Source: Siphonodentalium dalli (taxonomy: Eukaryota; Mollusca; Scaphopoda; Gadilida; Siphonodentaliidae). Taken from it: DNA of 64,000 bases. A program made the position numbers and the translations under genes. The stretch lies in assembly GCA_032622095.1 (NCBI GenBank), contig CP136063.1:69851980-69915979 (forward strand), in the 5' to 3' direction. The notes below the pieces were generated by a model, which saw only the letters and a list, made by a program, of their open reading frames with translations, did no database searches and was not told where the DNA came from. Shown one piece after another: positions 21,885 to 64,000 of this stretch. The stretch's first letter is position 1; the number at the start of each line of letters is the position of its first letter.

Positions 21885-22831
21885 TCATATATCTGTTGCT
21901 GCCTTTATGTGCTTAATACTTCCATTTGCAGCATATTTAACCAGAACTTTTCCTCCAGTTGACCAGGCATCTTCCACTTGTCCATTATCTTGTGCCTTCT
22001 TTAGAAGGATGTTGTTTTTAAGTGTTAAGTCCTCCTTTATAACTATGCCACTTCCCTTAAGCATTCTTCTAACCTTCATAACATCCAGTTTGTCCATTCT
22101 GTTCACAAACTTCACAATCATTGGTCTGTTTTGATCTTTTGTAGGTTCTCCCAGCAATGCTCACATCTTTAGTTACAATTTTGAGGTTCAGTTTTTTATT
22201 GCACACATCAACCACTTTATCAATACAGTCTTCAATTTTCTCCTGAGAACAGTCTCCCCCGATTCCATATATCCCCACACTCTCTTGTCTAGTATGCTGT
22301 TCCAAGTTATTCACTTCTGTTTTTAGTGCTACTACTTCCTTTTCTAGTCTTGTGGTGTTTTCATCTCTTTCACTGTCTTTTTGTCTGATAGTTTCAATTT
22401 CTTTCTTCATCTCGTCATACTTTTTGTTCATATCAAATATTTCACTTTCATGTTTGGATTCCAGAGTATTTATTTTAGTTTCAAATTCTGTTTTAACATT
22501 GTCAATAAGTGAATTAACAGTTTCAGTTGTTACCAGTGGGAAAATAGCAGCTTCCAAATCTTGTTTAGTAACAACATTGTCCAATTTGATGTTCATCTCT
22601 TTGAGGAGTTCAGCAATTTGCTTTTCTGCTGGATCAATGTGTGTGGATGGTTTCACCTATTTATCAGAAGCAAAGTTTTTCATCGATGTCTGACCTGATT
22701 CTGCAGTTTTTTGTTTTTTTGGGTGGGACATTAGATTTGAATTTGGTATTAGTAACGTTTGGTAGCGTACCCTTGTTCAAACTATCGTCGTTACTGGACG
22801 TTGAACTTGTCAGATCGCGTTTTGGTGGCAT
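21885..22831 (-). pseudogene. Decayed LINE-type ORF1 (coiled coil plus RNA-binding region)
   Basis: Reading from an ATG at 22831, the protein begins MPPKRDLTSSTSS, a basic, Ser-rich start common in LINE ORF1 proteins. The frame is broken near 22665-22690 by a shift and stops. It resumes as an acidic/basic heptad-like coiled coil (about 22560-22300, rich in Lys/Glu with Leu/Ile spacing). It then reaches a segment with HTRQESVGIYGI, resembling the RRM-like start of ORF1p. A second shift near 22150 leads into NRPMIVKFVNRMDKLDVM and an end near 21885. This architecture is that of L1/CR1-class ORF1 nucleic-acid chaperones. No partner reverse transcriptase follows on this strand, so the copy is isolated and non-functional. 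Confidence 0.7.
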
Positions 22832-23691: not shown

Positions 23692-24717
23692 AATCTCAGA
23701 TTGCTAATTGTTAATTGTAGAAGCCTAGTCAGCAACAAAGCGGAAATGGAAATTGTAACCACCTACATAAAGCCTGACGTTATCATCGGTACAGAGTCAT
23801 GGCTAAAATGAAAGAAGCCAGGTAAAGAACCAGCTCAAAATGCCATCAAGTCAGCTGAAGTCTTTCCTGAAGACTATACTGCCTATAGGAATGATCGAGA
23901 TACGACGGGTGGAGGAGTCTTCATTGTCATTCACCAGGAAGCAGTTGCAATAGAGAAGACAGAATACATCACCAACTGCGAAATTGAATGGATTAAACTG
24001 TCAATACAAGGAGGCAAGGATATACACGTAGGAAGTTTCTACATGGCACATCGATCCAAATCAGACCTAGAAAATCTAGAAAAATCCATCAAAGCACTGA
24101 TGAAAAAGACTGACTCCAGTTTCATCCTCGGAGGAGATTTTAATCGTCCTGACATCGACTGGGATACAATGACTGTACGGCCAGGGGCACAAGACCGAGA
24201 GATTCAGAATGACCTCATCAACAACGTGTGTGCGAAATTAGGACTAAAACAGGTACAGGAGGACCCAACCAGGGAAGGAAACCTACTGGACCTAATCATA
24301 ACAAACAACCCATCACTAATAAAATCAACCACTACAATACCTGGCATATCAGACCACAATATGATCATTGCTGACTGTTCTCCAACTCCGTCCTACAACA
24401 AACCAGTACAGAAAACTAGATATCTATTTCACAAGGCAAATTGGACTGACATAGCTGCAGATGTGGAGAAGATAGCGGTGCAAATAGAAGATTTTGCGAC
24501 AGATACCAACATCGATACCATGTGGAACTACTTTCGCGATTCCATCAAAGAAGTCGTGGAAAATAGAGTGCCAAAAGCACCAAGATGTCGACGTAAACAA
24601 CTACCGTGGATAAATAGAAGACTCAAACTACTCCTAAAAGACTACACAGGAAAGCTAAAGAAGCAGGAAGTTGGAAAGTGTACAAATACCACCAGAAGAT
24701 ATGTAGAAGAGAATTGA
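23692..24717 (+). pseudogene. Endonuclease domain of CR1-like ORF2
   Basis: Family role: nicking target DNA to prime reverse transcription. Visible EN motifs in order are LIVNCRSLVSNK (Asn motif), VIIGTESWL (catalytic Glu motif), GGGVFIV, FILGGDFNRPDIDW (the GDFN motif) and ISDHNMIIAD (the SDH motif with catalytic His). An in-frame TGA directly after the TESWL motif (23809-23811) interrupts the domain. The frame then stays open to 24717. True continuity with the RT needs a shift near 24655, because the alternative frame reads on into lysine-rich sequence and the RT. Key residues E, D, N and H are all present. Confidence 0.85.
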
Positions 24718-24797
24718 GGAAAGCATAGCAAGAACATATAAACACCATACTAAAGAAGAGGAAGGAAAAGAAAACATCCAAACCTTTTTGGAGCTAC

Positions 24798-26534
24798 ATG
24801 AATGCCAGAAAACAAGAGAGAACAGGTACGCCACCGCTAAAAACAGGAACATCACTCACAAACGATGCAAGAGAGAAAGCGGAGCTACTAAATAAACAAT
24901 TTCAGTCGGTTTTCACCATAGGCACTGATGAAGAGCTACCATCAATACCGCAGAACAGTATAAACATCAAGACACTGGAAATCACAGAAGAAGGGATAAA
25001 GAAGCTTCTGGAAGATATCAAACCATCAAAGGCACCAGGTCCAGACAACATCCCTAATAAAGTACTCAAAATACTGGCCAATGTATTGGCGAAACCCATC
25101 ACCACCATTTTCAACAAATCCATATAGACAGGCACCCTTCCAGAAGACTGGCTGAACGCAAACATAACACCAGTTTATAAGAACGGGGATGTACACCAAC
25201 CATCAAACTACAGATCAGTTTCACTTACTTCAACATGCTGTAAACTACTAGAGCACGTCCTGTGTAGACACATCCGCGACCATCTGGAACTCTGCAACCT
25301 ACTTACTGATAGAAACCACGGATTTAGATATGGCCACTCATGTGTAACCCAGCTTGTAAACACCACACAAGATCTACTATCGTCTTTCGACTCGGAGAAA
25401 CAAACATGCAGATATGGCAATTCTCGACTTTTCAAAGCCTTTGACACGGTACCACACCAGAGTCTATTATACAAACTGAAATCGTACGGAATCACCGGAC
25501 CTATACACACCTGGTTGACAAGCTTCTTAACAAAAAGGCATATGAGAGTAGTGCTGGAAGGAGAAACATCCAAAAGTGTTCCAGTGGAATCGGGAGTACC
25601 CCAAGGCACAGTACTAGGACCTCTACTATTCCTCTACCACATCAATGACCTTCCAAAAGCAGTCAAATCAGAAGTAAGACTCTTTGCTGATGACTGCATC
25701 CTATACCGCCAGATAAATAGCCACCAAGACCACATCAAACTACAACAGGACCTGACATCACTAGAAGAGTGGGCAAAAACCTGGGGGATGAGATTGAATG
25801 ACGGAAAATGCTCCATAATGTCCATGAAGAACAAGGACAAGAACAAAACATCGTTCATCTACCAACTTGACAATCAAATTCTGCAAACAGTCAAACAAAG
25901 CGTTTACCTAGGATTGAACATCACAGACGACCTAAAGTGGACAACGCACATATCCAAGATCACAGGACGAGCCAATAACACCCTAGGCTTCCTACGCAGA
26001 AATATACGAAGAGCGGATAACAAATCTAGAGAGACAGCATATAGATCTATGGTAAGAACATCACTCGAATATGGAGCTGAAATATGGGATCCCGCCGCAG
26101 TAGGAGAAATAGAGAAGTTAGAAAAAGTACAGAGAAGAGCGGCTAGATTCATCACCAACAACTATAGAGACAGAGAAAAAGGCGCAGTAACCAGCATGAT
26201 AGATGGCCTAAGGTTAGGCTCACTAGAGTCCCGCAGAAAGATGAAGAGAATAGAACTCTTCGGCAAGGTGGTTGAGGGTAAAATCCCAGCCACACACACA
26301 CATGACTTACTAAAGGAAAAGAAAGGACGGAAGATTCGAGCAAAACAATTTCCAGACCATAAAAGTTATAACATAATTTCGAGCCAAGAGTGTATCAACT
26401 CACGATCGTTCGAACCAATAAGAGCCAACACGGACCAATATAACCATTCATTCTTCGTGAGAACGATCAGCGACTGGAACAGTATAGAAGAATATGCATG
26501 CTCTGGGACCACACCAGGATCAACATCAGAGTAG
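24798..26534 (+). pseudogene. Reverse transcriptase domain of CR1-like ORF2
   Basis: One frame throughout, broken only by a TAG at 25125-25127. RT landmarks: SKAPGPDNIPNKVL, PEDWLNANITPVYKNGD, PSNYRSVSLTS, FKAFDTVPH (motif A region), SGVPQGTVLGPLLF, and FADDCILY, the catalytic FADD box at about 25681. Downstream are WAKTWGMRLNDGKC and YLGLNITDDLKW. A C-terminal region carries LEKVQRRAARFI and SFFVRTISDWNS, typical of CR1/Jockey-group elements. The motif A region reads GNSRLFKAFDTV where another frame reads AILDFSK. So two compensating shifts have replaced about ten residues, including the first catalytic Asp. The enzyme is dead. Confidence 0.88.
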
Positions 26535-27309: not shown

Positions 27310-28100
27310 TTAAGTAGTTTTTAAATGTTCCCGACCAATTTCATGGGTCCGCTTCATTTCTTGTTCAAGGTCTTTCAGGTATTGACTGGTATCAGTTTTA
27401 GGCTGAGTTTCTTTCGTAAACTTAAACACCAAGTCTACTGGGTGATTAACTTCACGTCCCAACATAAGTTTAATTGGGGTTTGTCTGTGCACTGATGATC
27501 TTAGCGCGCCCGCTATTTGGGGAAGGAATTTGTACCAGTTTCGTTGGTTTCTGTCAACGAAACATCGGACCGCATTCATCAGGGTCCGATTTTGACGTTT
27601 CACCTGGCCATTTGCCAAAGGTCGATAAGGGGTCGTTCGGCTTTTATGTATTTGGAGTAACTCGCAGATCGCGAGGAAAAGTTTACGTTCAAAACATGGG
27701 CCCTGGTCCATCAAAGTTTGCAAGGGGCATCCGAAGCGTGCAAATAATTCATTTACCGCCGCACATGCCATCGTTTCTGCGGTCTGATCAGGAAGGGGAA
27801 TACACTCCACCCACTTAGTAAACTGATGCGTGATCACCAGAATGTATTTGTCATCCTGTTCACTGAGTGGTATTGGTCCCAGGAAATCCAGGGCACCCTG
27901 TCCATTGGATTACCCGCATGGAATGTTTGCTTTTCCCATTTGGCATGCCTCGATGGTTTCTTCCATCGATTGCATTGGGGGCAGGCCCCTGTGAATGATT
28001 CAATGTCTTGAGTAATTCCATGCATAGAAGTACTTTTTGGCTCTAGCTTTGGTACGCACCACGCCCTGATGACCAGAAGCGGGTATAATTCAGAGAACAT
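27310..28100 (-). pseudogene. Gypsy-type integrase copy in the left arm, catalytic Glu lost
   Basis: On the minus strand the frames read ACPQCNRWKKPSRHAKWE (end of the HHCC zinc region), then FTKWVECIPLPDQ, LMDQGPCFE and ANGQVKRQNRTL. Gypsy integrases use a D, D(35)E triad. The second Asp (in MDQG) is kept, but the Glu of the NGQVE motif is Lys here, and the first Asp motif is broken by a frame change near 27830. This copy cannot be active. It is nearly the reverse complement of 30330-30990. Confidence 0.8.
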
Positions 28101-28137
28101 GCATGTTTTACCTGATATGGAACCCGCGAGTTCTCAG

Positions 28138-28400
28138 GACTTATTTTTGTATGTACCTGGACACATCTAAAGTAGCACTTTGAATGTTAACAAGAATCGT
28201 CTTGGCCGCACATGACTTAATCCAAAATAAGAGGGTGAACAATTATGCAAATTACCCCTAAGTTTATAGTCAGATTAGAAAAAAGCTATATGAGATATTA
28301 AATTGAGGTAAATTGCGTTTTGTTCCTTATACCATTCCACGTATTGTATTATGTGTTCTGTTCAGAGAGTATAAAACCATCCTATCTACCCCCGCCAACG
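28138..28400 (+). repeat. Third, diverged copy of the element's terminal block
   Basis: TTTTTGTATGTACCTGGACAC, GATGTTAACAAGAA-like sequence and TGCGTTTTGTTCCTTAT match, in order, 26625-26830 and the reverse complement of 31500-31690. It is more diverged than the two outer arms. It may be the true left end of an older copy. Confidence 0.65.
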
Positions 28401-28986
28401 CGGAGGAATCAGGCACCAGGGCCATTGAAAATAAATCATGTCACGAATGTGTGACAATTTGTATGTAAACGTTACAACAAGTAGCTCCAACCTCAACATT
28501 ATTCATCATGAACAGACGCCCCGAGTTGCCTATGGTCAACAAGACGGGCACCAACTCGTATTTATTAATCCTGATATAATAGGATTCAACATCTTTGTCG
28601 TCAGAGCTTTCGCTGTTTCCTTCGACAAGCAAATCGTGGAGTGTTGGTGGAAGAATGCCACATTCGGACCACAGTGTCTCTAAAATTCCTTCGTCATCTG
28701 TCCATTCATTTTCCAATGGTGACGGAATAGTGTGCTAATTCACATGCGACAGTTTCAGTTGACCAACACGGAAGTTCACCCGTTTTATGTGAGGCGTCAG
28801 CGACCTCTTACGTGGTGGCATTTTGGATAAGTCAACTTTTGATGACTTGGTGCCGATTAGTTCACCTTTCCCAACCATCTATATCAGCATCAAATATCTC
28901 ACCGTGTCAACGTTCTTCGCTCTATAGGAAATCCAAGTCCATAATGCGTCTTATTACCATGCCAGGTATATGCCTACCATCAAGTC
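28401..28986. other. Internal sequence of the Gypsy relic without recognisable domain
   Basis: Overlapping ORFs on both strands (28438-28716) show no protease, gag or RT motif I can defend. The RT catalytic core expected upstream of 28987 is missing, so internal sequence has been deleted or replaced. Confidence 0.4.
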
Positions 28987-30151
28987 TTGGTCAAAGATGA
29001 GGAGTTTCTAGGAAGAATTGTCAGTCAGGATGGGGTTAAACTGAATGACGAGTCCCTAGAAACAGTTAAAAACTGGCCAATCCCACCAAGTACCAAGGAA
29101 GTAGAAAGCTTTTGTGGCCTTGTGAACTACCATCGGGCTTTTGTCAAAAGTTATGGCGAGATAGCTAGACCATTATATGCCCTCACTGGAAAACAGCCAT
29201 TCATATGGGGGAAGAACAGCAGGAGGCCTTTAATACACTCAAGGCTCTCTGGTGTCTCCTCCAGTCTTGGCACTACCCAACAGTAAAGACTCCTTTGTCC
29301 TGGATTGCGATGCTAGTGGGTGGGCCGTCGAGGCGGAGCTCTTGTAGATCATAGGGGGTGAAGAACGAGTGATTGCCAATGGTAGCTTTATCCTTACCCC
29401 GGAGCAAAGCCAGTATTGCACACCCCGGAAAGAACTCCTGGCTGGCATACGGTTTAACCGGCAATTCCGTCACTACCTTTTGGGCAAGCCCTTCCTTCTA
29501 AGGACGGATCATAGCAGCCTCAAATGGTTGATGGATATCAAGAGCCCCCAGGGTCAAATAGCTAGATGGTTGGAGGAGCTCAGCCAATATGACATAGTGG
29601 TTGAGCACCGAGCGGGAAATAAGCATGTATATGCTGACGCCCTCTCCCGAATACCAACTGAGGTCACTTGCCAGCAGTATACCGCGGGCTGTGACCTTAA
29701 CAAGTTGCCATGCAATGGCTACAAATACTGTCAGCATCTCCAGCGAAACTGGGCTAGATTTGAAGAGGAAGTTGTGCCTTTAGCCGAGGGGTCATGGGAG
29801 TTTGTAACTGAGAATGACCAAGTGACTCCATCTGTCTCAATGGTAACCTCCGCTAATTACTCAGGGGAGGAATGCTGGCAAGATGGATTCCAAGGGCTGC
29901 CTTGGGACCCAGGAGGCGACTGGTCGGATTGCGAGCCATGGATGGGTTGTGTCTGCCCAGAAACTGGATGGATGCACTCAAAATTGGACTTGCATTACCA
30001 CTATATACATAAGACAAAGGTAAATGTGAGACAAGTTACAAGTTCAGATCCCGACCTAAGCTTGGCCGGTATATGCACCCTAGTTGAACTGGGGAAACAA
30101 CGTAAGGATCCGGATCTATCCCCAGTCACTGCGTGGATAGAATCCGGTTAA
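28987..30151 (+). pseudogene. Ty3/Gypsy RT C-terminus and RNase H
   Basis: The first frame (28987-29286) reads EFLGRIVSQDGVKLND and FCGLVNYHRAFVKSYGEIA, the RT thumb/connection. A shift near 29270 and a TAG near 29345 follow. The second frame (29369-30151) carries LTPEQSQYCTPRKELLAG, RHYLLGKPFLLRTDHSSLKW, PQGQIARWLEELSQYD and HVYADALSRIP. These are the RNase H signatures, with Glu (RKELL), Asp (RTDHS) and Asp (ADALS) visible. The first Asp lies in the shifted segment (LDCDAS). In the family it degrades RNA in the RNA:DNA hybrid. The stop and shift make it a relic. Confidence 0.85.
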
Positions 30152-30164
30152 GAACCAACAGAGG

Positions 30165-30990
30165 GTGAATTATTCCATTAAGGCCACTAAATATATCTGG
30201 ATTAATCGTCAGAGATTTGTGATAGTAAATGAATTACTGTACAAGATAAAAAGGAATGGGGAGCAGGTTTTAGTCATTCCCAGCCAATTTGCGGCTGAGA
30301 TCTTGACTATGGCTCATGATATACCCGCTTCTTGTCATCAGGGCGTGGTGCGTACTAAAGCTAGAGCCAAAAAGTACTTCTATGCATGGAATTACTCAAG
30401 ACATTGAATCATTCATATGGGCCTGCCCCCAATGCAATTAAGGGAAGAAACCATCGAGGCATGCCAAATGGGAATTGCAAACCTCCCATGCGGGTAGTCC
30501 AATGGTAAGAGTGCACCTGGATTTCCTGGGACCATTGCCACTTGGTGAACAGGATGACAAATATATTCTGGTGATCGCGCATCAGTTTACTAAGTGGGTG
30601 GAGTGTATTCCCCTTCCTGATCAGATCGCAGAAACGATGGCATGTGCGGCGGTAAATGAATTATTTGCACGCTTCGGATGCCCCTTGCAAATTTTGACGG
30701 ACCAGGGCCCATGTTTTGAAAGTAAACGTTTCTGTGCGATCTGCGATTTACTCCAGATACATAAAAGCCGAACGACCCCTTATCGACCTTCGGCAAATGG
30801 CCAGGTGGAACGTCAAAACCGGACCCTGATGAATGCGGTCCGATGTTTCGTTGACAAAAACCAACGAAACTGGGACAATTTCTTCCCCAAATAGCGGGCG
30901 CGCTAAGATCATCAGTGCACAGACTTACTGGCCAAATCCCAAATAAACTTATGTTGGGACGTGAAGTTAATCACCCAGTAGACTTGGTGT
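30165..30990 (+). pseudogene. Gypsy-type integrase copy in the right arm
   Basis: The zinc-binding region appears as HDIPASCHQGVVRTKARAKKYF (the His pair), then, after a frameshift near 30400, ACPQCN. The core reads VHLDFLGPLPLGEQDD (first Asp), ILTDQGPCFES (second Asp) and ANGQVERQNRTL (Glu), so the D,D,E triad is intact. The frame stops at 30892 and resumes in another frame as far as about 30990 (QINLCWDVKLITQ region). The family role is inserting the cDNA into chromosomes. This is the less damaged of the two antiparallel copies. Confidence 0.85.
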
Positions 30991-31733: not shown

Positions 31734-32435
31734 TAGGGGGTGTACCTAGCTGCCCGACTAATTGGTGTGTGAAGTCAGGCTGGGTGTAAACTAACGAACA
31801 TTAGTTAATGGGAGGTCTATGGTCATTAATGCTCATTTCAATGTTTGGGGTTTCAGAGAAATATGTATCATAACCATCGCCAAGTAGGATAGTTTGTGTT
31901 AAATTCCAAAGAGGACCTTCAAATTTATCATTCCAACTAGATTTCTGGTAGATAGCACCCTCTGATGTAGGGGGTGTACCTAGCTGCCCGACTAATTGGT
32001 GTGTGAAGTCAGGCTGGGTGTAAACTAACGAACATTAGTTAATGGGAGGTCTATAATCATTAATGCTCATTTCAATGTTTGGGGTTTCAGAGAAATATGT
32101 ATCATAACCATCGCCAAGTAGGATAGTTTGTGTTAAATTCCAAAGAGGACCTTCAAATTTATCATTCCAACTAGATTTCTGGTAGATAGCACCCTCTGAT
32201 GTAGGGGGTGTACCTAGCTGCCCGACTAATTGGTGTGTGAAGTCAGGCTGGGTGTAAACTAACGAACATTAGTTAATGGGAGGTCTATGGTCATTAATGC
32301 TCATTTCAATGTTTGGGGTTTCAGAGAAATATGTATCATAACCATCGCCAAGTAGGATAGTTTGTGTTAAATTCCAAAGAGGACCTTCAAATTTATCATT
32401 CCAACTAGATTTCTGGTAGATAGCACCCTCTGATG
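31734..32435 (+). repeat. Three near-identical 234-bp tandem units
   Basis: TAGGGGGTGTACCTAGCTGC starts at 31734, 31968 and 32202. The units are almost identical; unit 2 has ATAATCATTAA where units 1 and 3 have ATGGTCATTAA. The array starts exactly at the right end of the Gypsy fold-back and ends at CTCTGATG before unique DNA. It is non-coding. Very low divergence indicates recent amplification. Confidence 0.92.
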
Positions 32436-34110
32436 TGATTTCAAAGCTAAAAAATTAATCGCCATTTAATTAGTATATACACGCGGTTATTTGCCTATAC
32501 AATTGGCAGATACTGTTTTGGGCTTGCAATATGATGTATATATAGTAACAAAACATGCAAATTGCAATTTGCACGACAGTGTTCCTGCAATTAGCTGTAC
32601 ACCAAATAATTATGTCTAGAACCCGAAGCCACGACAAATAGTTTTCACGGCTGGCTCAACCAATTTTGGTGGCTGGTTATCTAGCTAAGCCGGCTCAGTC
32701 GCGACGTTCGTGGCTGACGAAATATGGCGGCTCAGCCGGCTTAGACGTTATCATTCTGCGTATTTCGCTTCCGAAATTTTCCCAATCCCCGGTTATAGAC
32801 ACCCGCTTGTTTTTGGCGTTTGTTGTGAACCCGTATAATTCCAGACCATGCGTATTCTTTTGGTGTTGGGCTTTTCCATTATGGCGAAATACACGAAGGA
32901 CTCAGTAAAGGACTCGCAGTGATGCACTATGTAGTTTCCCATCTATCTAATCGGTATATTAGTTACATTGGGACTTCTGTCGACTTCCGACGGCTATATC
33001 ATCACTGGCATCTTGCGATATATGCACGCATCATTGAATGCTGAATCCGATAGTATTGATATATAATATTTCAAACTATTTTCTATTCTCTTCTACAGGT
33101 TATGTGCATATATTGACAAATGTCAGCGATGTCTGAGACTGAGATCGTGTCGAAATAAATAATTTATACGTTAAACCCTTTCAATACTGAATGGATGTTC
33201 CCACTCCGTTATATGAAAGCATGCATTGAAATAGTCTATTCCACAATGAGAGGCCCCGGGTATTCTGATAGTGTAGCAACCATACCGTGTCCATACGAGT
33301 ATGCCAATATTAGGCAATGCGGGTTAGTTATTTGCGATTCGCAGTACAGTTGTCCTTAACATATAAGTCCATGCACATGGCTCAGCCATTTTACAATTCC
33401 GGCAGCGGAGATTTTTTCATGCGGCTGGCGTTAGAGATAATATGGCTGCCGCCGGCTTGTGGCCAATATGGCTGGCGGCGGCGGCGTGTGATGGCGGCTT
33501 CGGGCTCTAATTATGTCTTTCGGCAATAATTTTAACAAACAGCCGAAAAACTCAAGTTTTGTGCTATGTAAGTCAGTGTGGACCTTTATTACGTCATGTC
33601 CATAGCAATATGTAAACATTCAGACGTTTTAGTTATAAGAAAATCGGTGTTTATCAGACCAAGTTGCAGACGATTCGTATAATTTCACCTAATAATTGTG
33701 ATTTCTGAGGACGTACTTTATATCCAGAATTTATAGATAGTATACTCTACCATTAATCAGAGGGATTTTATATTCCTGATGTGTCATGGTTTTTAACAAT
33801 CACGAATGTTCGGTAAAAAATGTAGGTATATTGTGTAACAAATGAAAATTTCCTGCATAATTTCCGGTGTCGGATATACACAGTGGTATTGTAACCTTAC
33901 CCGGCTATGGTGTCTATTGATGCGAGAGATTATTACGCCACCGTAGTGTGGTGTTTCTAGCTTTTGGTTTTTTGATATCGCATGGTCGATCGATAATTCA
34001 CTGGGTGATTGTACATTCGGCAAACCTCGTCAGATTCCGTCACCGTTTCATCGTACCGATAATTACGAGAGTACAACTAAGATTGGCACATGTGTTTACG
34101 TCACCGGTGT
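32436..34110. other. No gene recognised; GGCTGGC/GGCGGC-rich patch
   Basis: GC-rich phrases (GGCTGGCTC, GGCGGCGGCG) near 32650-32740 and 33370-33500 look like the two ends of one element: GGCTCAGCCGGCTT near 32731 against GGCTCAGCCATTTT near 33381. I cannot define its borders. ORFs at 32666-32908 and 33317-33529 are not supported as genes. Confidence 0.35.
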
Positions 34111-37652: not shown

Positions 37653-37676
37653 ATTTGATCCCCAGACGCACACAAG

Positions 37677-40374
37677 ATGAAGCCACCAGTCGAGATTACT
37701 TTACTCGGATTCGTGTATGTATTTGATGTCATCTTGGCGTTATCAGACCGCCACCCTTGCAAGGACCTTTCGGAGTGCAGCTGTAGCGTTTTTTACCCGG
37801 ATGAGGGAGTGGACGTTGATTGTGCTGGGAAATTGCTCACGTCGGTACCTGAGAACATTCCGATAAATACGGTGACTCTCGATATAAGCCGGAATCCGCT
37901 CGGTGTTCTCCGTAATCACTCGTTCAGCGGTCTGTTCAAACTGAAGGAGCTCAAAGCAGACGACGCAAATCTTAAGTTTATCGATGTTGGTGTTTTTTCA
38001 GACTTGATAGCGTTAGAATTCCTATCTTTGTTGGACAATTCTGAGTTGGGCTTTTATGAGGCCAAACTGGAGGTAAATGTGTTCGCGCCATTGCAAAAAC
38101 TGACAGAATTACGGGTCTATGGAAATGTCGGTTCATTTTCAACGACTATGAAATATCCAGGTTATCTTCTGACAACTTTAAAAAATATCGGCTGCTATGT
38201 TTGGTGACAGCATGAAACGCCTGGTCAACCTCACCAGTTTATATATGTCTGGTATCCACAGCAACAGTTACTGTAACATGACTCACATACCACAGAACTA
38301 CTTTACTAATATTCCATATATTAAGAAATTAACTATACAGAAGTGCGGTGTAGTTAACATACATAAACTCGCACTTGGCGCACTTAAAAACATATTCGCA
38401 CTGGATTTATCTTATAACATGGATTTGAATTTACATGGAGCCGAAGAAGCATCATATAGCTTACGGAATTCCAATATAACAGAGTTATATCTGATTGCTA
38501 TACATAGAACCTTCGGCCTTGGCGTTCCATTAAAAAAAGCACACGTGCAGTGGCTGAAAAATACACCCATACAGGTATTGGATATAAGTAGCAACAGGTT
38601 GGAAACGGTCGAAGATGGCACACTTCTAGACTTACCTCCCGGGCTGCAGTTGGTAAACATTGCAGACAACAAGTTGACATATGGAAGTTATATACTTGAG
38701 TTTGCACAACTCACTAATGTCAAATACATAAACATGAGTCTCATGTTCGCATCTCACAACCCTTTAACGGGATCGTTAGACAAAAGACTGACTTGTGGTG
38801 ATGACCCCGACCCCATTGCACGTGGACCTAACCCGGAAACTATACACACCACAGGAGATAGTCGAACAGACGAGTTTATAAATAACAAACAGCAGACGAT
38901 CAATGAAACTGGCAATACACGTACCGACGGGTCTCGTGTTAAGCAAAGTTTGCCGTCCATGTTAGCTGCAGGTATTCCGATACCGGTACCCAAATCCTTC
39001 AAGCTAATTCTCGCTTCCCAGATGTCGCTACAATATAAAATCCCTCGGATAAGTTTCCAGACGAATAATATTGAACTCGGTGATCTTAGTTCTAATTTAC
39101 TGTACAGTTGGGTCGGACCAGTCATCGGTTTGGAGAAAGTGACATTTCTCAATCTGTCCAACAATTTCTGTTCGCACATATCAGAGCATTTCTTCGACGA
39201 AATGGTTGGACTACAGTCTTTAATATTGGATAATAACTTACTAGGATTTGAGATATCAGACGACCGTCGCGGAAATATTTTCAAAAATTTAGTAAACATT
39301 CGTGTTTTGAATTTGGCACAGAACAGACTTACTGACGTACCGGATAAACTCTTGACTCACATGAGGAATCTTTCACGTTTGGACATTAGTAGAAACATAC
39401 TGTCAGACTTGGATTTCAGCATTGACTCCCTGACCTCTTTATCGTATCTTGACCTTTCTGAAAACGTCATTCCTTCCATACCAGCAGATATGCGCAATGC
39501 GTTTGATAAACTTGGTAGTCGTTTGACGCTTATTATCACAGGAAACAAACTTCAGTGTAACTGTGAAACCATCGAATTCTTAGAATGGATTCAGGCAACT
39601 GACGTAAAGGTTCCATCAAAAGAGCAACTTTATTGCAAAGTCGACGACAAGAGAAGATATTTTACGGACATTGAATCGGTAATAAAGCAACTTGATCAGC
39701 GATGTCGTGATTACGTTCCCTTCATTCTTGTCGGCGTCATTGGTATTTTTCTGTACATCGTCGGCATACTTCTTATGGTTATTTATAGACACAGATGGAA
39801 ATTGCGGTATCTGTACTATGTTGGACGAGCCCGCTTCCACCAAGCCGAACACGAGGGCGAGTTTATGTATGACGCCTTCATTTCTTACGCGGAAGAAGAC
39901 AAGCCATTCATCAATGAAATGGTAGATCGACTTGAAAAGAATTCCAAACTGAATCTATGCATCCACGAAAGAAACTTTGTGCCAGGTATGACAATAGAAT
40001 ATAACATAACAGCTTGTATTCATAACAGCAGGAAGGTGGTCTGTATACTGTCCAGTTCGTTCTTCAAGCGTCCTTGGTGTCAATATGAATTCCACATGGC
40101 TCGCGTTGAAGAAATGCACACCGGCCGAGATGTCCTAATTCTCGTGAATCTCAGTTATTTCGCGTCCAAGGAGATTCCACACGAGATCAAGGAACAGATG
40201 GAGTTTGCATCTTATTCCAGATATCCTAACCATCCCGATGAGAGGATTAGAGAATTATTCTGGGCTAATCTTATCATGTCAATAATGGACAGTGCCCAGC
40301 TACCTAAGAAACGCGACAACGATGGTGAAAATACAAGACGCAAAGTACTCTACACACCTGTTAAAGGAAATTAA
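37677..40374 (+). CDS. TLR: Toll-like receptor, one frame disruption
   Basis: A membrane pattern-recognition receptor of innate immunity. Part 1 (37677-38207, 176 codons) has a signal peptide (about residues 1-22), an LRRNT with Cys 28, 34, 36 and 49, and the first leucine-rich repeats. Part 2 (frame from 38197, 725 codons) continues the LRRs. It has an irregular hydrophilic island with a repeated TGxxRTDxx phrase (about residues 215-250) and an LRRCT with Cys 454, 456, 480 and 503. One membrane span (about 506-530) and a TIR domain (about 556-705) follow. TIR boxes are YDAFISYAEED, HERNFVPG (box 2) and a terminal FW. The two parts are joined by a frame change near 38170-38200; one base fewer in the A6 run at about 38179 would restore one frame. 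That is either an assembly error or a null allele. The single C-terminal cysteine cluster fits the sccTLR type. The stop TAA lies within the TTAA of a MITE. Confidence 0.92.
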
Positions 40375-53491: not shown

Positions 53492-53745
53492 AAGCTCCAT
53501 GCAGAGTTCAGTCCCCTATACGCATGACCTACCGCTGCTCGCACCTACACGTAACGAAGCTCCATGCAGAGTTCAGTCCCCTACGCATGACCTACCGCTG
53601 CTCGCACCTACACGTAATGAAGCTCAATGCAGAGTTCAGTCCCCTACGCATGACCTACCGCTGCTCGCACCTACACGTAATGAAGCTCCATGCAGAGTTC
53701 AGTCCCCTACGCATGACTTACCGCTGCTCGCACCAACACGCAATG
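53492..53745 (+). repeat. 63-65-bp minisatellite, four units
   Basis: AAGCTCCATGCAGAGTTCAG starts at 53492, 53557, 53620 and 53683 (one unit has CTCAATG). Because three units are 63 bp, two plus-strand frames stay open and give repeated peptides. There is no independent evidence that it is translated. Confidence 0.88.
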
Positions 53746-54019
53746 TGAAGAAATGCCGCATTTATTTATTTGAGATTTTTGTAGGTAACAATTAATTCTG
53801 CATTATTCGGAGAAACTGAAAGTTCATATTCATTTTAAAAATGGTCTAGTTCAAGCCCGAATGAATTGTAACTGGCAAATCACTTCAATAAAAAAATGTT
53901 AGATTTAATTTAAAAATAAACGTGCTGGCAGCGTTCAAACATCGCTTTAATAGCACGTGATTCCTGACTGTCCACATTTAATTCGAATAGGAGTGAACAA
54001 TCGCACTCACCTGAACTGT

Positions 54020-54159
54020 TCAGTACATGAATGTGTTACTGATAGGACTCTTCCGCTTGTCGTCATTCGTGTCGGTTAGGACCTCACCAGCGTCGGTCGT
54101 ATCCACTGCATCGTCATATTCATCGAGAAACTTAAAAGCATCAGCCGTTACATGCTTGC
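54020..54159 (-). CDS. Last coding exon of an unrecognised minus-strand gene
   Basis: After an acceptor ending ATTTACAG (AG at 54161-54160) the exon begins GC|AAG. It stays open for 45 residues rich in Asp/Thr and ends NTFMY and TGA (54022-54020). The first two bases complete a codon with the single G left by the exon ending at 58178, giving Gly, so the phases agree. A strong donor, TTCAG then GTGAGT (54010 downwards), lies nine bases after the stop, suggesting a 3' UTR intron. The Phe-x-Tyr end could be a class II PDZ ligand (inference). The first 26 bases of the exon and its acceptor belong to the 47-bp array at 54134-54777. Confidence 0.65.
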
Positions 54160-54777
54160 CTGTAAATACGATAGTTTGATAAAAGCATCAGCCGTTACAT
54201 GCTTGCCTGTAAATACGATAGTTTGATAAAAGCATCAGCCGTTACATGCTTGCCTGTAAATACGATAGTTTGATAAAAGCATCAGCCGTTACATGCTTGC
54301 CTGTAAATACGATAGTTTGATAAAAGCATCAGCCGTTACATGCTTGCCTGTAAATACGATAGTTTGATAAAAGCATCAGCCGTTACATGCTTGCCTGTAA
54401 ATACGATAGTTTGATAAAAGCATCAGCCGTTACATGCTTGCCTGTAAATACGATAGTTTGATAAAAGCATCAGCCGTTACATGCTTGCCTGTAAATACGA
54501 TAGTTTGATAAAAGCATCAGCCGTTACATGCTTGCCTGTAAATACGATAGTTTGATAAAAGCATCAGCCGTTACATGCTTGCCTGTAAATACGATAGTTT
54601 GATAAAAGCATCAGCCGTTACATGCTTGCCTGTAAATACGATAGTTTGATAAAAGCATCAGCCGTTACATGCTTGCCTGTAAATACGATAGTTTGATAAA
54701 AGCATCAGCCGTTACATGCTTGCCTGTAAATACGATAGTTTGATAAAAGCATCAGCCGTTACATGCTTGCCTGTAAA
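54134..54777 (-). repeat. 47-bp minisatellite, 13.7 units, each carrying a splice acceptor
   Basis: AAAAGCATCAGCCGTTACAT starts at 54134 and then every 47 bp up to 54745. The units look identical. On the minus strand each unit reads ATCGTATTTACAG then GCAAGCATG, the acceptor and start of the last coding exon of the gene on this strand. The outermost unit is preceded by a better pyrimidine tract (TTTTTTCTACTTCTGCTTAT), so that is probably the ancestral acceptor and the array grew into the exon. Confidence 0.9.
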
Positions 54778-54829
54778 ATAAGCAGAAGTAGAAAAAACAC
54801 ACCAACGTGATCAGATACCGACCAGGACT

Positions 54830-55795: not shown

Positions 55796-56254
55796 GTGAT
55801 CCGCCATATCAAATCCAGTCGTAAGTCGGGATTTTTTTTACCCTGTGCCAATGCATTCTCTTATATATGCGAGTCGACCATAGGTCGCCTCGCATATATA
55901 AGAGAATGCATTGGCCTAACAATTTTTTACAATTTTAATAATTTGTTCTTGTATTCTTTAACATTTTTATAATTTCACCCATACAGAGCCCCAGACAAAC
56001 ATGAGGAGACGACACTCTTATATATGCTTCTATATATGTGTGGGGCTCCCTGCAGGGTAATGGATGTTTTTTTTATTTTATGTCCTAAAAATTGTAAGAA
56101 ACATTTATTTAAAAAAAATGATAAAAAATTGTTAGGCCAATGCATTCTCTTATATATGCGAGGCGACCTATGGTCGACTCGCATATATAAGAGAATGCAT
56201 TGGCACAGGGTAAAAAAATCCCGACTTACGACTGGATTTAATATGGCGGGTCAC
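55796..56254. mobile_element. Double-hairpin MITE J, copy 3 (4-bp duplication AAAT)
   Basis: The termini GTGATCCGCCATATCAAATC and GGCGGGTCAC are flanked by AAAT on both sides. The paired hairpins are intact. It is inserted in the intron of the minus-strand gene. Confidence 0.92.
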
Positions 56255-58177: not shown

Positions 58178-58988
58178 CCTGGTTGGATATATCCCCTGAG
58201 GTTACGGAAGCTGGGGAATCTGGTCGGGCTGAGTCCGGTATATCTACAGACTGCTGTCGTTTATTATATGATGAAGCATATGACGTCACTTCAGATGGCA
58301 TCTTTGGTGACGTAGACGACAGAACACTTTGCGGCCCACCCGTTTCCGGATCCCTGCGATCGGCCCTTTCTTCTATCATCTGCTCCATTGTTTCTATGAG
58401 GGGATTTTCGTAAGCATGATCCGATTTCCTCTTATTATTAGGAGTACTATCTAAATCACCCTTATACACATAAGGTCTAAGATTTATCTCAGCAGTGATG
58501 TCGTCACTAGATTTTGTTATAAAACGTTTTTTTTTCGTCATCAGTGACGTTGTCTGTAGTTTTGTGCAATTCGTCGGCTGATTTACTGAGATTTTCTTTG
58601 GATCTTAGTATCACTTCCGGGTGAGATTTATTTAGAGCACTATGCGCAGGTTGCCTGTAAATATCCGGTTCGTTATTGGATGAGAACACATGAACATCCG
58701 GCAAGTTTTCAGAATGCGTCGAATGACGCTGTTCCTTATAATCTTTGTCAGATTTTTTAGAGGAAGCATGACTTCCACTTCTGTCGCGTCCTTCATTGCT
58801 GGTTTTAGAGTGCCGTTTCGCTTTAGGACCCGACGTCTTCCGCACTTTCTTCTCTACCCTGTCACGTGTGTGAGCGTTGTCGCTCTGAGTTCTCTTAAGT
58901 CGTATATCATTGCCACTCTGTGGTTGCCGTTGTACCCTGGCGTCGTAGAAATCAGGAGCGTGTCCGTTAACATGGCGGCGAGGGATAT
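58178..58988 (-). CDS. Large internal exon of the unrecognised minus-strand gene
   Basis: The acceptor is AACTTCTCTCTTGTAG (AG at 58990-58989); the donor is CCAGG then GTAAGATT (58177 downwards). The exon starts AT|ATC and ends with one base over, phase 1 at both ends, matching its neighbours. It encodes about 269 hydrophilic residues rich in Ser, Lys, Asp, Glu and Arg with no cysteines, membrane span or fold I recognise. Features include an RRDRVEKK-like basic start, a Ser/Lys/Arg/His-rich stretch, and DHAYENPLIETMEQMIEERA (possibly a short helix). This looks like a disordered cytoplasmic or scaffold region. At 58529-58537 a run of nine A breaks the frame; eight A would keep it open and make the exon length a multiple of three. 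Confidence 0.72.
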
Positions 58989-60677: not shown

Positions 60678-60809
60678 CATCCTCGTAGCCGTATACAACA
60701 GGGTATTTCTCCCGACTGTAGTCATAGGCGCTATATAATCCGTCCTCTGCAAGTGGAGCTAACTGCTGGCTGTGGTATATACGTAGATTGTTCTGATACG
60801 CCATGTATG
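60678..60809 (-). CDS. Upstream coding exon of the unrecognised minus-strand gene
   Basis: The acceptor is TACTGTTCTTCTTCCAG (AG at 60811-60810); the donor is GAGGATG then GTAAGTAT. It is 132 nt, phase 1 at both ends, and only one frame is open. It contains AYQNNLRIYHSQQLAPLAED and ends near VVYGYED. The final G joins AT of the next exon to give Asp. It is tyrosine-rich (nine Tyr in about 44 residues), unlike the Ser/Lys-rich exon that follows. No family is recognised. Earlier exons must lie beyond 60811, possibly outside the window. Confidence 0.7.
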
Positions 60810-61627: not shown

Positions 61628-62019
61628 CCCTTTACCCAACAGAACGGCCATGTGCCAATGCATTCTCTTATATATGCGAGTCGACCATAGGTCGCCTCGC
61701 ATATATAAGAGAATGCATTGGCTTAACACATTAAAACTTATAAAATTGTTAAAGAATGTAAGAAAAAATGGTAAAAAGTGTTAAAAAAAGATTTATTTTA
61801 GGCCAATGCATTCTCTTATATATGCGAGGCGACCTATGGTCGACTCGCATATATAAGAGAATACATTGGCACAGGGCATAACTGTAACCATCACAATGTG
61901 GTCAATGAGCCGGTTCCAATGATATCCATATTTGTATGGTTTTATTGAGACAGACCCAAGATAATTTAGGCTGTTGCAGCTTTATTTGGCCGTTTTTGGC
62001 CGGTTTGTTGGGTAAAGGG
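61628..62019. mobile_element. Double-hairpin MITE K, copy 2 (TTAA)
   Basis: CCCTTTACCCAACAG and TTTGTTGGGTAAAGGG are flanked by TTAA (61624-61627 and 62020-62023). It has the same hairpins and right-hand block as copy 1 at 49096. Confidence 0.92.
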
Positions 62020-63840: not shown

Positions 63841-64000
63841 GATCCTGTGCCAGTGCATTCTCTTATATATGCGAGTCTCCCATAGGGGGCCTGGCATATA
63901 TAAGAGAATGTTCTCACTCAGATAGTCAATGTATATATTATTAGGCCAATGTATTCTCTTATATATGGGAGGCTCCCTATGGAAGACTCGCATATATCAG
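63841..64000. mobile_element. Diverged double-hairpin element, cut by the window end
   Basis: CCTGTGCCAGTGCATTCTCTTATATATGCGAG (key GCATTCTCTTATATATGC) folds back at 63877-63913. A second hairpin starts GGCCAATGTATTCTCTTATA at 63943 and is truncated at 64000. The tips differ from families J and K (TCTCCCATAGGGGGCC), so this is an older or third family. Confidence 0.75.

Follow-up and report, generated by a model that had tools for sequence, protein, structure and literature searches.

Introduction

Minisatellites that lie across an intron-exon boundary have been described in amphioxus, in Adh3, BflGb6 and BflGb9, under the name of mirages (PMC3087553). The BflGb6 mirage repeats the 3' end of the intron together with the start of the exon, six times in one haplotype and three times in the other, with units of 150-160 bp that are 81-100% identical; the Adh3 units are 10-72 bp long, and somatic instability is reported for them (PMC3087553). 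According to its authors, the Adh3 data and RT-PCR on the globins suggest that regular splicing is undisturbed (PMC3087553).

In human UBC and VCX3A, dual-specific sites are reported to let repeat expansions be spliced out (PMC10809524). The potato RdRp gene gained an intron when a segment spanning an intron-exon boundary was duplicated once; the new donor is GT, and RNA-seq proves the intron (PMC4974935). Internal tandem repeats at exon-intron boundaries in human segmental duplications, averaging four units of 30 bp, can create introns, with alternative transcripts supported in part of the cases (PMC2812944).

Here we describe an array of 47-bp units in the scaphopod mollusc Siphonodentalium dalli, on the minus strand of the 64,000-nucleotide stretch of DNA that was analysed (the window), and compare it with these systems.

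Results

A uniform 47-bp array

TRF reports a period of 47, 13.7 copies, 100% matches, 0% indels and a score of 1290 for the array (Table 1), and a script run on the minus strand finds all 13 complete units to be letter-identical, each composed of bases 1-27 of the exon that we call D, followed by the 20 bases TCAAACTATCGTATTTACAG, which end in TTTACAG. The boundaries ACAG/GCAAGCATGTAACGGCTGATGCTTTTA (a slash marks a splice boundary) number 14, and their first exon bases run from 54770 and 54723 down to 54206 and 54159 in steps of 47. The first-pass annotation had counted 13.7 identical-looking units, placed acceptors at 54159+47k and seen near-zero divergence, all of which agrees with what we find; the 0 differences among 13 units point to recent expansion or strong homogenisation, and the locus may be polymorphic.

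At up to three mismatches, a search of the 2.23-Gb genome for the 47-mer returned 13 matches, all of them in the array (a control pattern had 0), and the whole 767-bp stretch 54011-54777 has a single genome match. The 20-base tail of the unit, a short filler, has one match outside the array in the window at up to four mismatches, on the plus strand at 22777 with three mismatches. The array is a genuine feature, and chance is ruled out as its cause.

When the 611 bp of units are removed in silico, the intron end gtgttttttctacttctgcttattttacag abuts a complete exon D and the boundary reads ...ttattttacag/GCAAGCATG...TTTTAAGTTTCTC, a normal intron end, so the array resembles a tandem-duplication insertion into an intact boundary. 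An RNA structure that masks the outer acceptors was considered and rejected, the array folding worse than its shuffles (z +5.1; each of the 20 shuffles was as stable or more so). The whole window had no match in Rfam at the gathering threshold.

Table 1. Features of the array and of the gene around it, in window positions
Feature	Position	Strand	Remarks
47-bp minisatellite	54133-54777	minus	13 complete units (54160-54770) and a partial unit; TRF, script, genome search
Outermost (distal) acceptor, first exon base	54770	minus	preceded by a strong pyrimidine tract; presumed original acceptor
Intron end gtgttttttctacttctgcttattttacag preceding the outermost acceptor	54771-54800	minus	home-made score of 9.2 (repeat acceptors, 2.8)
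Proximal acceptor, first base of complete exon D	54159	minus	sole long-tail acceptor among the 14
Exon A	66380-66055	minus	window-extended numbering, beyond the window (locus L001); ends in phase 1
Exon B	60678-60809	minus	132 nt; phase 1 to 1
Exon C	58178-58988	minus	811 nt; acceptor ctcttgtag/ATATCCC, donor CCAGG/GTAAGA; phase 1
A9 run, frame loss of exon C in the assembly	58527-58535	minus	
Exon D, last coding exon	54011-54159	minus	149 nt; starts in phase 1; stop TGA at 54020-54022
Donor GTGAGT after CAG	54005-54010	minus	9 nt past the stop codon; suggests a 3'UTR intron after exon D
AATAAA, poly(A)-signal-like motif	53765-53770	minus	alternative end if the 54010 donor is unused
Second AATAAA, overlapping the first	53761-53766	minus	
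63-bp x 4 array	53492-53745		95% matches; just past exon D, outside its coding part

Arrays elsewhere

Six arrays, this one included, pass a cut-off of at least 3 copies, at least 95% matches and a period of at least 10 in 164 kb (the window and a further 100 kb), where they cover 1,934 bases. High-identity arrays are thus common, and a hit on some exon boundary would be expected in a genome of 2.2 Gb. We also cut out, with their flanks, 30 of the 85 myosin-head matches listed, many of which are paralogues and not independent: none of the 30 matched exons touches an array (at least 2.5 copies, 95% matches), and at 6 of the 30 loci such an array sits in the flank, at a distance of about 0.9 kb. 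A 44-bp x 13 minisatellite (95%) lies near a myosin exon (L026:12-585) and is also present in 5 other loci of the 30; a 30-bp x 4.1 minisatellite (100%) lies upstream of exon A (L001:6743-6865), and a 234-bp x 3 array with 99% matches occupies 31734-32436.

The gene and its reading frame

Read along the minus strand, the exons form a chain in the order A, B, C and D whose splice sites and phases are consistent except for one extra base in exon C. As assembled, exon C meets a stop before its donor, and the other frame, from the A9 run onward, is open for 357 nt up to the donor, which none of 2000 shuffles matched. Because 811 nt is a multiple of three plus one in a chain that otherwise runs from phase 1 to phase 1, the break looks like a single extra base, and our reading is that it stems from a run-length error of one base or from a very recent mutation. 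Elsewhere in the window, the Toll-like receptor gene likewise shifts frame next to an A6 run (~38180), which favours an assembly error at the A9 run without proving it. Were the frameshift real, exon D would be wholly untranslated. The coding signal of exon D is weak, with 167 of 2000 shuffles of 108 nt likewise open.

A Pfam search at E up to 5 matched none of six proteins (exons A-D and two exon-like ORFs at least 70 kb upstream), and no solved structure was found for the peptide of exon A. Whole-genome searches brought out no paralogue, either of the tail (one match, exon D itself) or of exons A-C (three matches, all from the A-D gene). With neither a Pfam family nor a paralogue to lend it one, the predicted A-D protein carries no family name. 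We searched the 98 kb upstream with a simple exon finder for a transmembrane exon that ends in phase 2 and found none; one set of cut-offs left only 7 donors and 23 acceptors there. Laxer cut-offs located none in the nearest 71 kb either.

The window holds several other elements. The Toll-like receptor gene (37659-40374, plus strand) has LRR and TIR domains in its second ORF, with TLR5 as the best PDB match. A non-LTR retroelement at 23812-26534 (plus strand) has three open stretches, an endonuclease domain (PF14529) and, by eye, a reverse-transcriptase-like ORF. Gypsy-like pieces at 27310-30894 include an RNase H domain (PF17917, 29348-30151, plus strand) and, again by eye, integrase-like ORFs on both strands. 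A dispersed palindromic element, noted by eye at several places in the window and also in ORF translations, with arms like CCAATGCATTCTCTTATATATGCGAG (for example at 61650-61860, 55850-56200 and 63890-63990), looks like a small inverted-repeat transposon.

Fourteen acceptors and two possible tails

Exon C joined to any of acceptors 1-13, that is to 13 of the 14, encodes the tail GKHVTADAFIKLSYLQASM and an early stop, and joined to acceptor 14 it encodes GKHVTADAFKFLDEYDDAVDTTDAGEVLTDTNDDKRKSPISNTFMY, 46 residues including a Gly that spans the junction. The multiplied acceptor of the first-pass annotation is thereby upheld at the level of sequence, together with its phase and the two possible tails, and so are its in-phase long tail from the proximal acceptor and its early end from each distal one. 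Of the proposed switch between C-termini one half may hold, in that the choice of acceptor could matter; the number of units fails as a switch, since all 13 acceptors with at least one unit downstream share one early stop, so that only the presence or absence of the array, or the efficiency of splicing, could make a difference.

The polypyrimidine context of the outermost boundary differs from that of the repeat acceptors and beats it. On a home-made acceptor and donor score, computed for the outermost, second and innermost array acceptors (the remaining ones being letter-identical), the outermost reaches 9.2 and the repeat acceptors 2.8; those of exons A, B and C reach 11.6, 8.6 and 6.6. Our yardstick from the same genome is the best-scoring AG near each of the 30 myosin matches, these picks being unconfirmed sites of which some are clearly false. 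An AG was in range in 29 of the 30 loci (not in L021), and merging identical picks left 20 distinct ones, 15 of them at 2.8 or more, 5 lower and 1 above 9.2. To judge by these scores, the outer site is clearly better, and the repeat sites would fall at the weak end of what the genome appears to use. A branch-like CTGAT lies 28 nt upstream of each repeat acceptor and 40 nt upstream of the outer one.

A consensus donor past the stop codon

The exon had been called terminal, a label that no longer fits well: a consensus donor, CAG/GTGAGT, sits 9 nt past the stop, so exon D is probably followed by another exon. This site scores highest of the four donors scored in the gene (8.3 vs 3.9, 6.6 and 4.8) and has the best U1 pairing in the gene (-11.9 kcal/mol), and MAG/GTRAGT occurs only three times, this site included, in 328 kb (both strands of the 164 kb). 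The AATAAA motifs near 53770 would permit a simple 3' end, and they count against a non-terminal exon D.

Nonsense-mediated decay affects transcripts whose stop lies beyond the usual limit of 50-55 nt upstream of a junction. If the 54010 donor is used, the 13 outer acceptors place their stop 137-701 nt upstream of the junction, and the productive stop is too near the junction for decay. Stops at such distances predict decay and not a second protein; use of a distal acceptor would then probably lead to mRNA decay rather than to a second C-terminus, and the switch would be one of on and off, not of two C-termini.

Possible GC-type donors at the array boundaries

All 14 boundaries also read CAG/GCAAGC, which departs from the GC-AG donor consensus only at +6. 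The 328 kb contain 17 copies of MAGGCAAG, 3 of them outside the array. The U1 pairing of CAG/GCAAGC is -6.3 kcal/mol, that of donors A, B and C -5.4, -8.8 and -8.9; viewed as a case of intron gain by tandem duplication, the duplicate would carry an acceptor and a candidate donor derived from the exon. We hypothesise that splicing of a GC-AG intron of 611 nt could take the array out of the RNA, either ahead of the upstream intron or once that intron has gone. The donor re-made once exon C has joined the first acceptor pairs more weakly (-4.2), which makes ratcheting less likely than removal of the array first. An mRNA from which the array had been excised would be the same as one joined directly to 54159, so ordinary RNA-seq is blind to the difference. 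A GT donor inside the unit, CAT/GTAACG, was rejected as weak (U1, -1.4 kcal/mol).

Discussion

We consider it probable, with some reserve, that this is a young mirage-type minisatellite over the 3' end of the intron and the start of exon D, in a gene that tolerates it. A segment made of the intron end and 27 bases at the start of the last coding exon would have been duplicated in tandem, and the duplication would have grown to 13 extra copies, probably through unequal exchange or slippage, leaving a pre-mRNA with 14 acceptors on offer. The array would be tolerated since, in what we take as the most likely state, the productive mRNA still links exon C to 54159, either directly or following removal of the array in the RNA; any of the 13 outer acceptors would lead to one shared early stop and probably to a product of mRNA decay. 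This reading is supported because the edge of the unit falls on a splice boundary of an A-B-C-D chain that is consistent in phase but for the extra base of exon C, because all 13 units are identical and, at up to three mismatches, are met nowhere else in the genome, because high-identity arrays are common in the surrounding DNA, and because similar arrays have been published for amphioxus Adh3, BflGb6 and BflGb9 (PMC3087553). Counting against it are the weak coding signal of exon D and the frameshift of exon C, and also the prospect that the truncating outer acceptor, at 9.2 vs 2.8 on the home-made score, could well dominate.

The alternatives overlap in their odds and are not all mutually exclusive. 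That same difference in score would suit a loss-of-tail allele, in which splicing at 54770 makes the product end in GKHVTADAFIKLSYLQASM or sends the mRNA to decay, so that the sequenced individual has little or none of the long tail. Thirteen of the 14 acceptors truncate, and 2.8 lies near the low end of the 20 distinct myosin picks, with 5 lower; yet 15 of these unconfirmed picks score at least 2.8 and 1 is above 9.2, so that a score of 2.8 is low but perhaps usable, and the amphioxus mirages are reported as harmless to splicing (PMC3087553). We hold such an allele to be somewhat improbable. That the gene is dying, the frame break of exon C being real and the array having grown in unconstrained sequence, would agree with an exon C that stops short of its donor as assembled; it is made unlikely by the 357 nt left open after the A9 run (0 of 2000 shuffles), by a length of one base over a multiple of three in a phase 1-to-1 chain, and by a pattern that looks like a single extra base, either the usual kind of error in run length or a mutation of very recent date. 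Base-level errors in the assembly are plausible, given that A runs interrupt two gene-like frames of the window (A9 in exon C, A6 in the Toll-like receptor gene), and one amphioxus mirage was apparently mis-assembled in the draft genome (PMC3087553). An artefact in the array itself or in its copy number is nevertheless very unlikely, for 645 bp is short relative to long reads, if such reads were used, and 47-bp units cannot arise from homopolymer errors.

An intron in the making is a further, doubtful reading, under which every boundary would be at once an acceptor (TTTACAG/) and a GC donor (CAG/GCAAGC) and the array a row of potential GC-AG introns of 47 nt each. The array would be excised as one 611-nt intron or stepwise via zero-length exons, either of which would restore a normal boundary in the RNA. 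The presence of CAG/GCAAGC at 14 of 14 boundaries, when MAGGCAAG occurs just 3 times outside the array in 328 kb, argues for it, as do a U1 pairing between that of donor A and those of donors B and C, and a CTGAT motif 28 nt before each repeat acceptor. GC donors, however, are weak in general, the re-made donor pairs worse still, and the GC likeness stems from the exon's own first bases and may be luck. The study of dual-specific arrays treats AGGT, and AGGC and GC-AG are absent from its main text (PMC10809524). Distinctly improbable, to our mind, is a minisatellite that erases itself, expansions of any length being spliced out through dual-specific boundaries as an n x 47 nt GC-AG intron; if this were true, the coding exon would be shielded, the array would be free to grow, and an intron would have been caught while forming.

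As a young, tolerated mirage, the array would show a lancelet-type boundary minisatellite in another animal, so far without sequence decay. Its 14 near-identical acceptors, of which 13 follow the same 47 bases or an identical 20-base intron end, offer in a natural gene a clean test of splicing choice among equal sites, and the array is also a test of how tandem expansions turn into introns. Among the papers listed in our literature searches, judged by titles and opening lines of abstracts, we recognised no boundary minisatellite with GC-type dual sites, which may exist in print all the same; the main text of PMC3902484 does not contain the word 'minisatellite'.

Comparison with known systems

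Set against the systems described at the outset, the S. dalli array shows the following points of likeness and difference:

(i) As in the amphioxus mirages, and in BflGb6 with its intron end and exon start, the unit spans an intron-exon boundary, placed here by phase and splice sites. It differs from BflGb6 in its 13 identical 47-bp units and in an outermost copy that keeps the better pyrimidine tract. The array is unusually long and uniform next to the lancelet repeats, and would be best filed as a very young, uniform mirage, by one of the three features of the kind, the unit that spans the boundary.

(ii) With the dual-specific arrays of UBC and VCX3A it has in common a boundary that matches both acceptor and donor, and a possible intron made up of a whole number of units (13 x 47 = 611); with the potato RdRp intron, a duplicated segment that holds an intron end and an exon start, the exon part here supplying a candidate donor. 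It departs from both in having GC in place of GT, from the former in a unit that is not a multiple of 3, so that partial retention truncates, and from the latter in its 13 copies. The AGGT of dual-specific arrays reads AGGC, the GC variant, at 14 of 14 unit boundaries, and we do not file the array as a member of that class.

(iii) The repeats of human segmental duplications resemble it in their position at exon-intron boundaries.

(iv) Classical recursive splicing at zero-length exons, which uses AG/GT sites in long introns, resembles it in an acceptor that directly abuts a donor, and differs in that the S. dalli boundary has GC, not AG/GT.

Taken together, the S. dalli array joins features of the mirages, the dual-specific arrays and the potato intron, with GC replacing GT.
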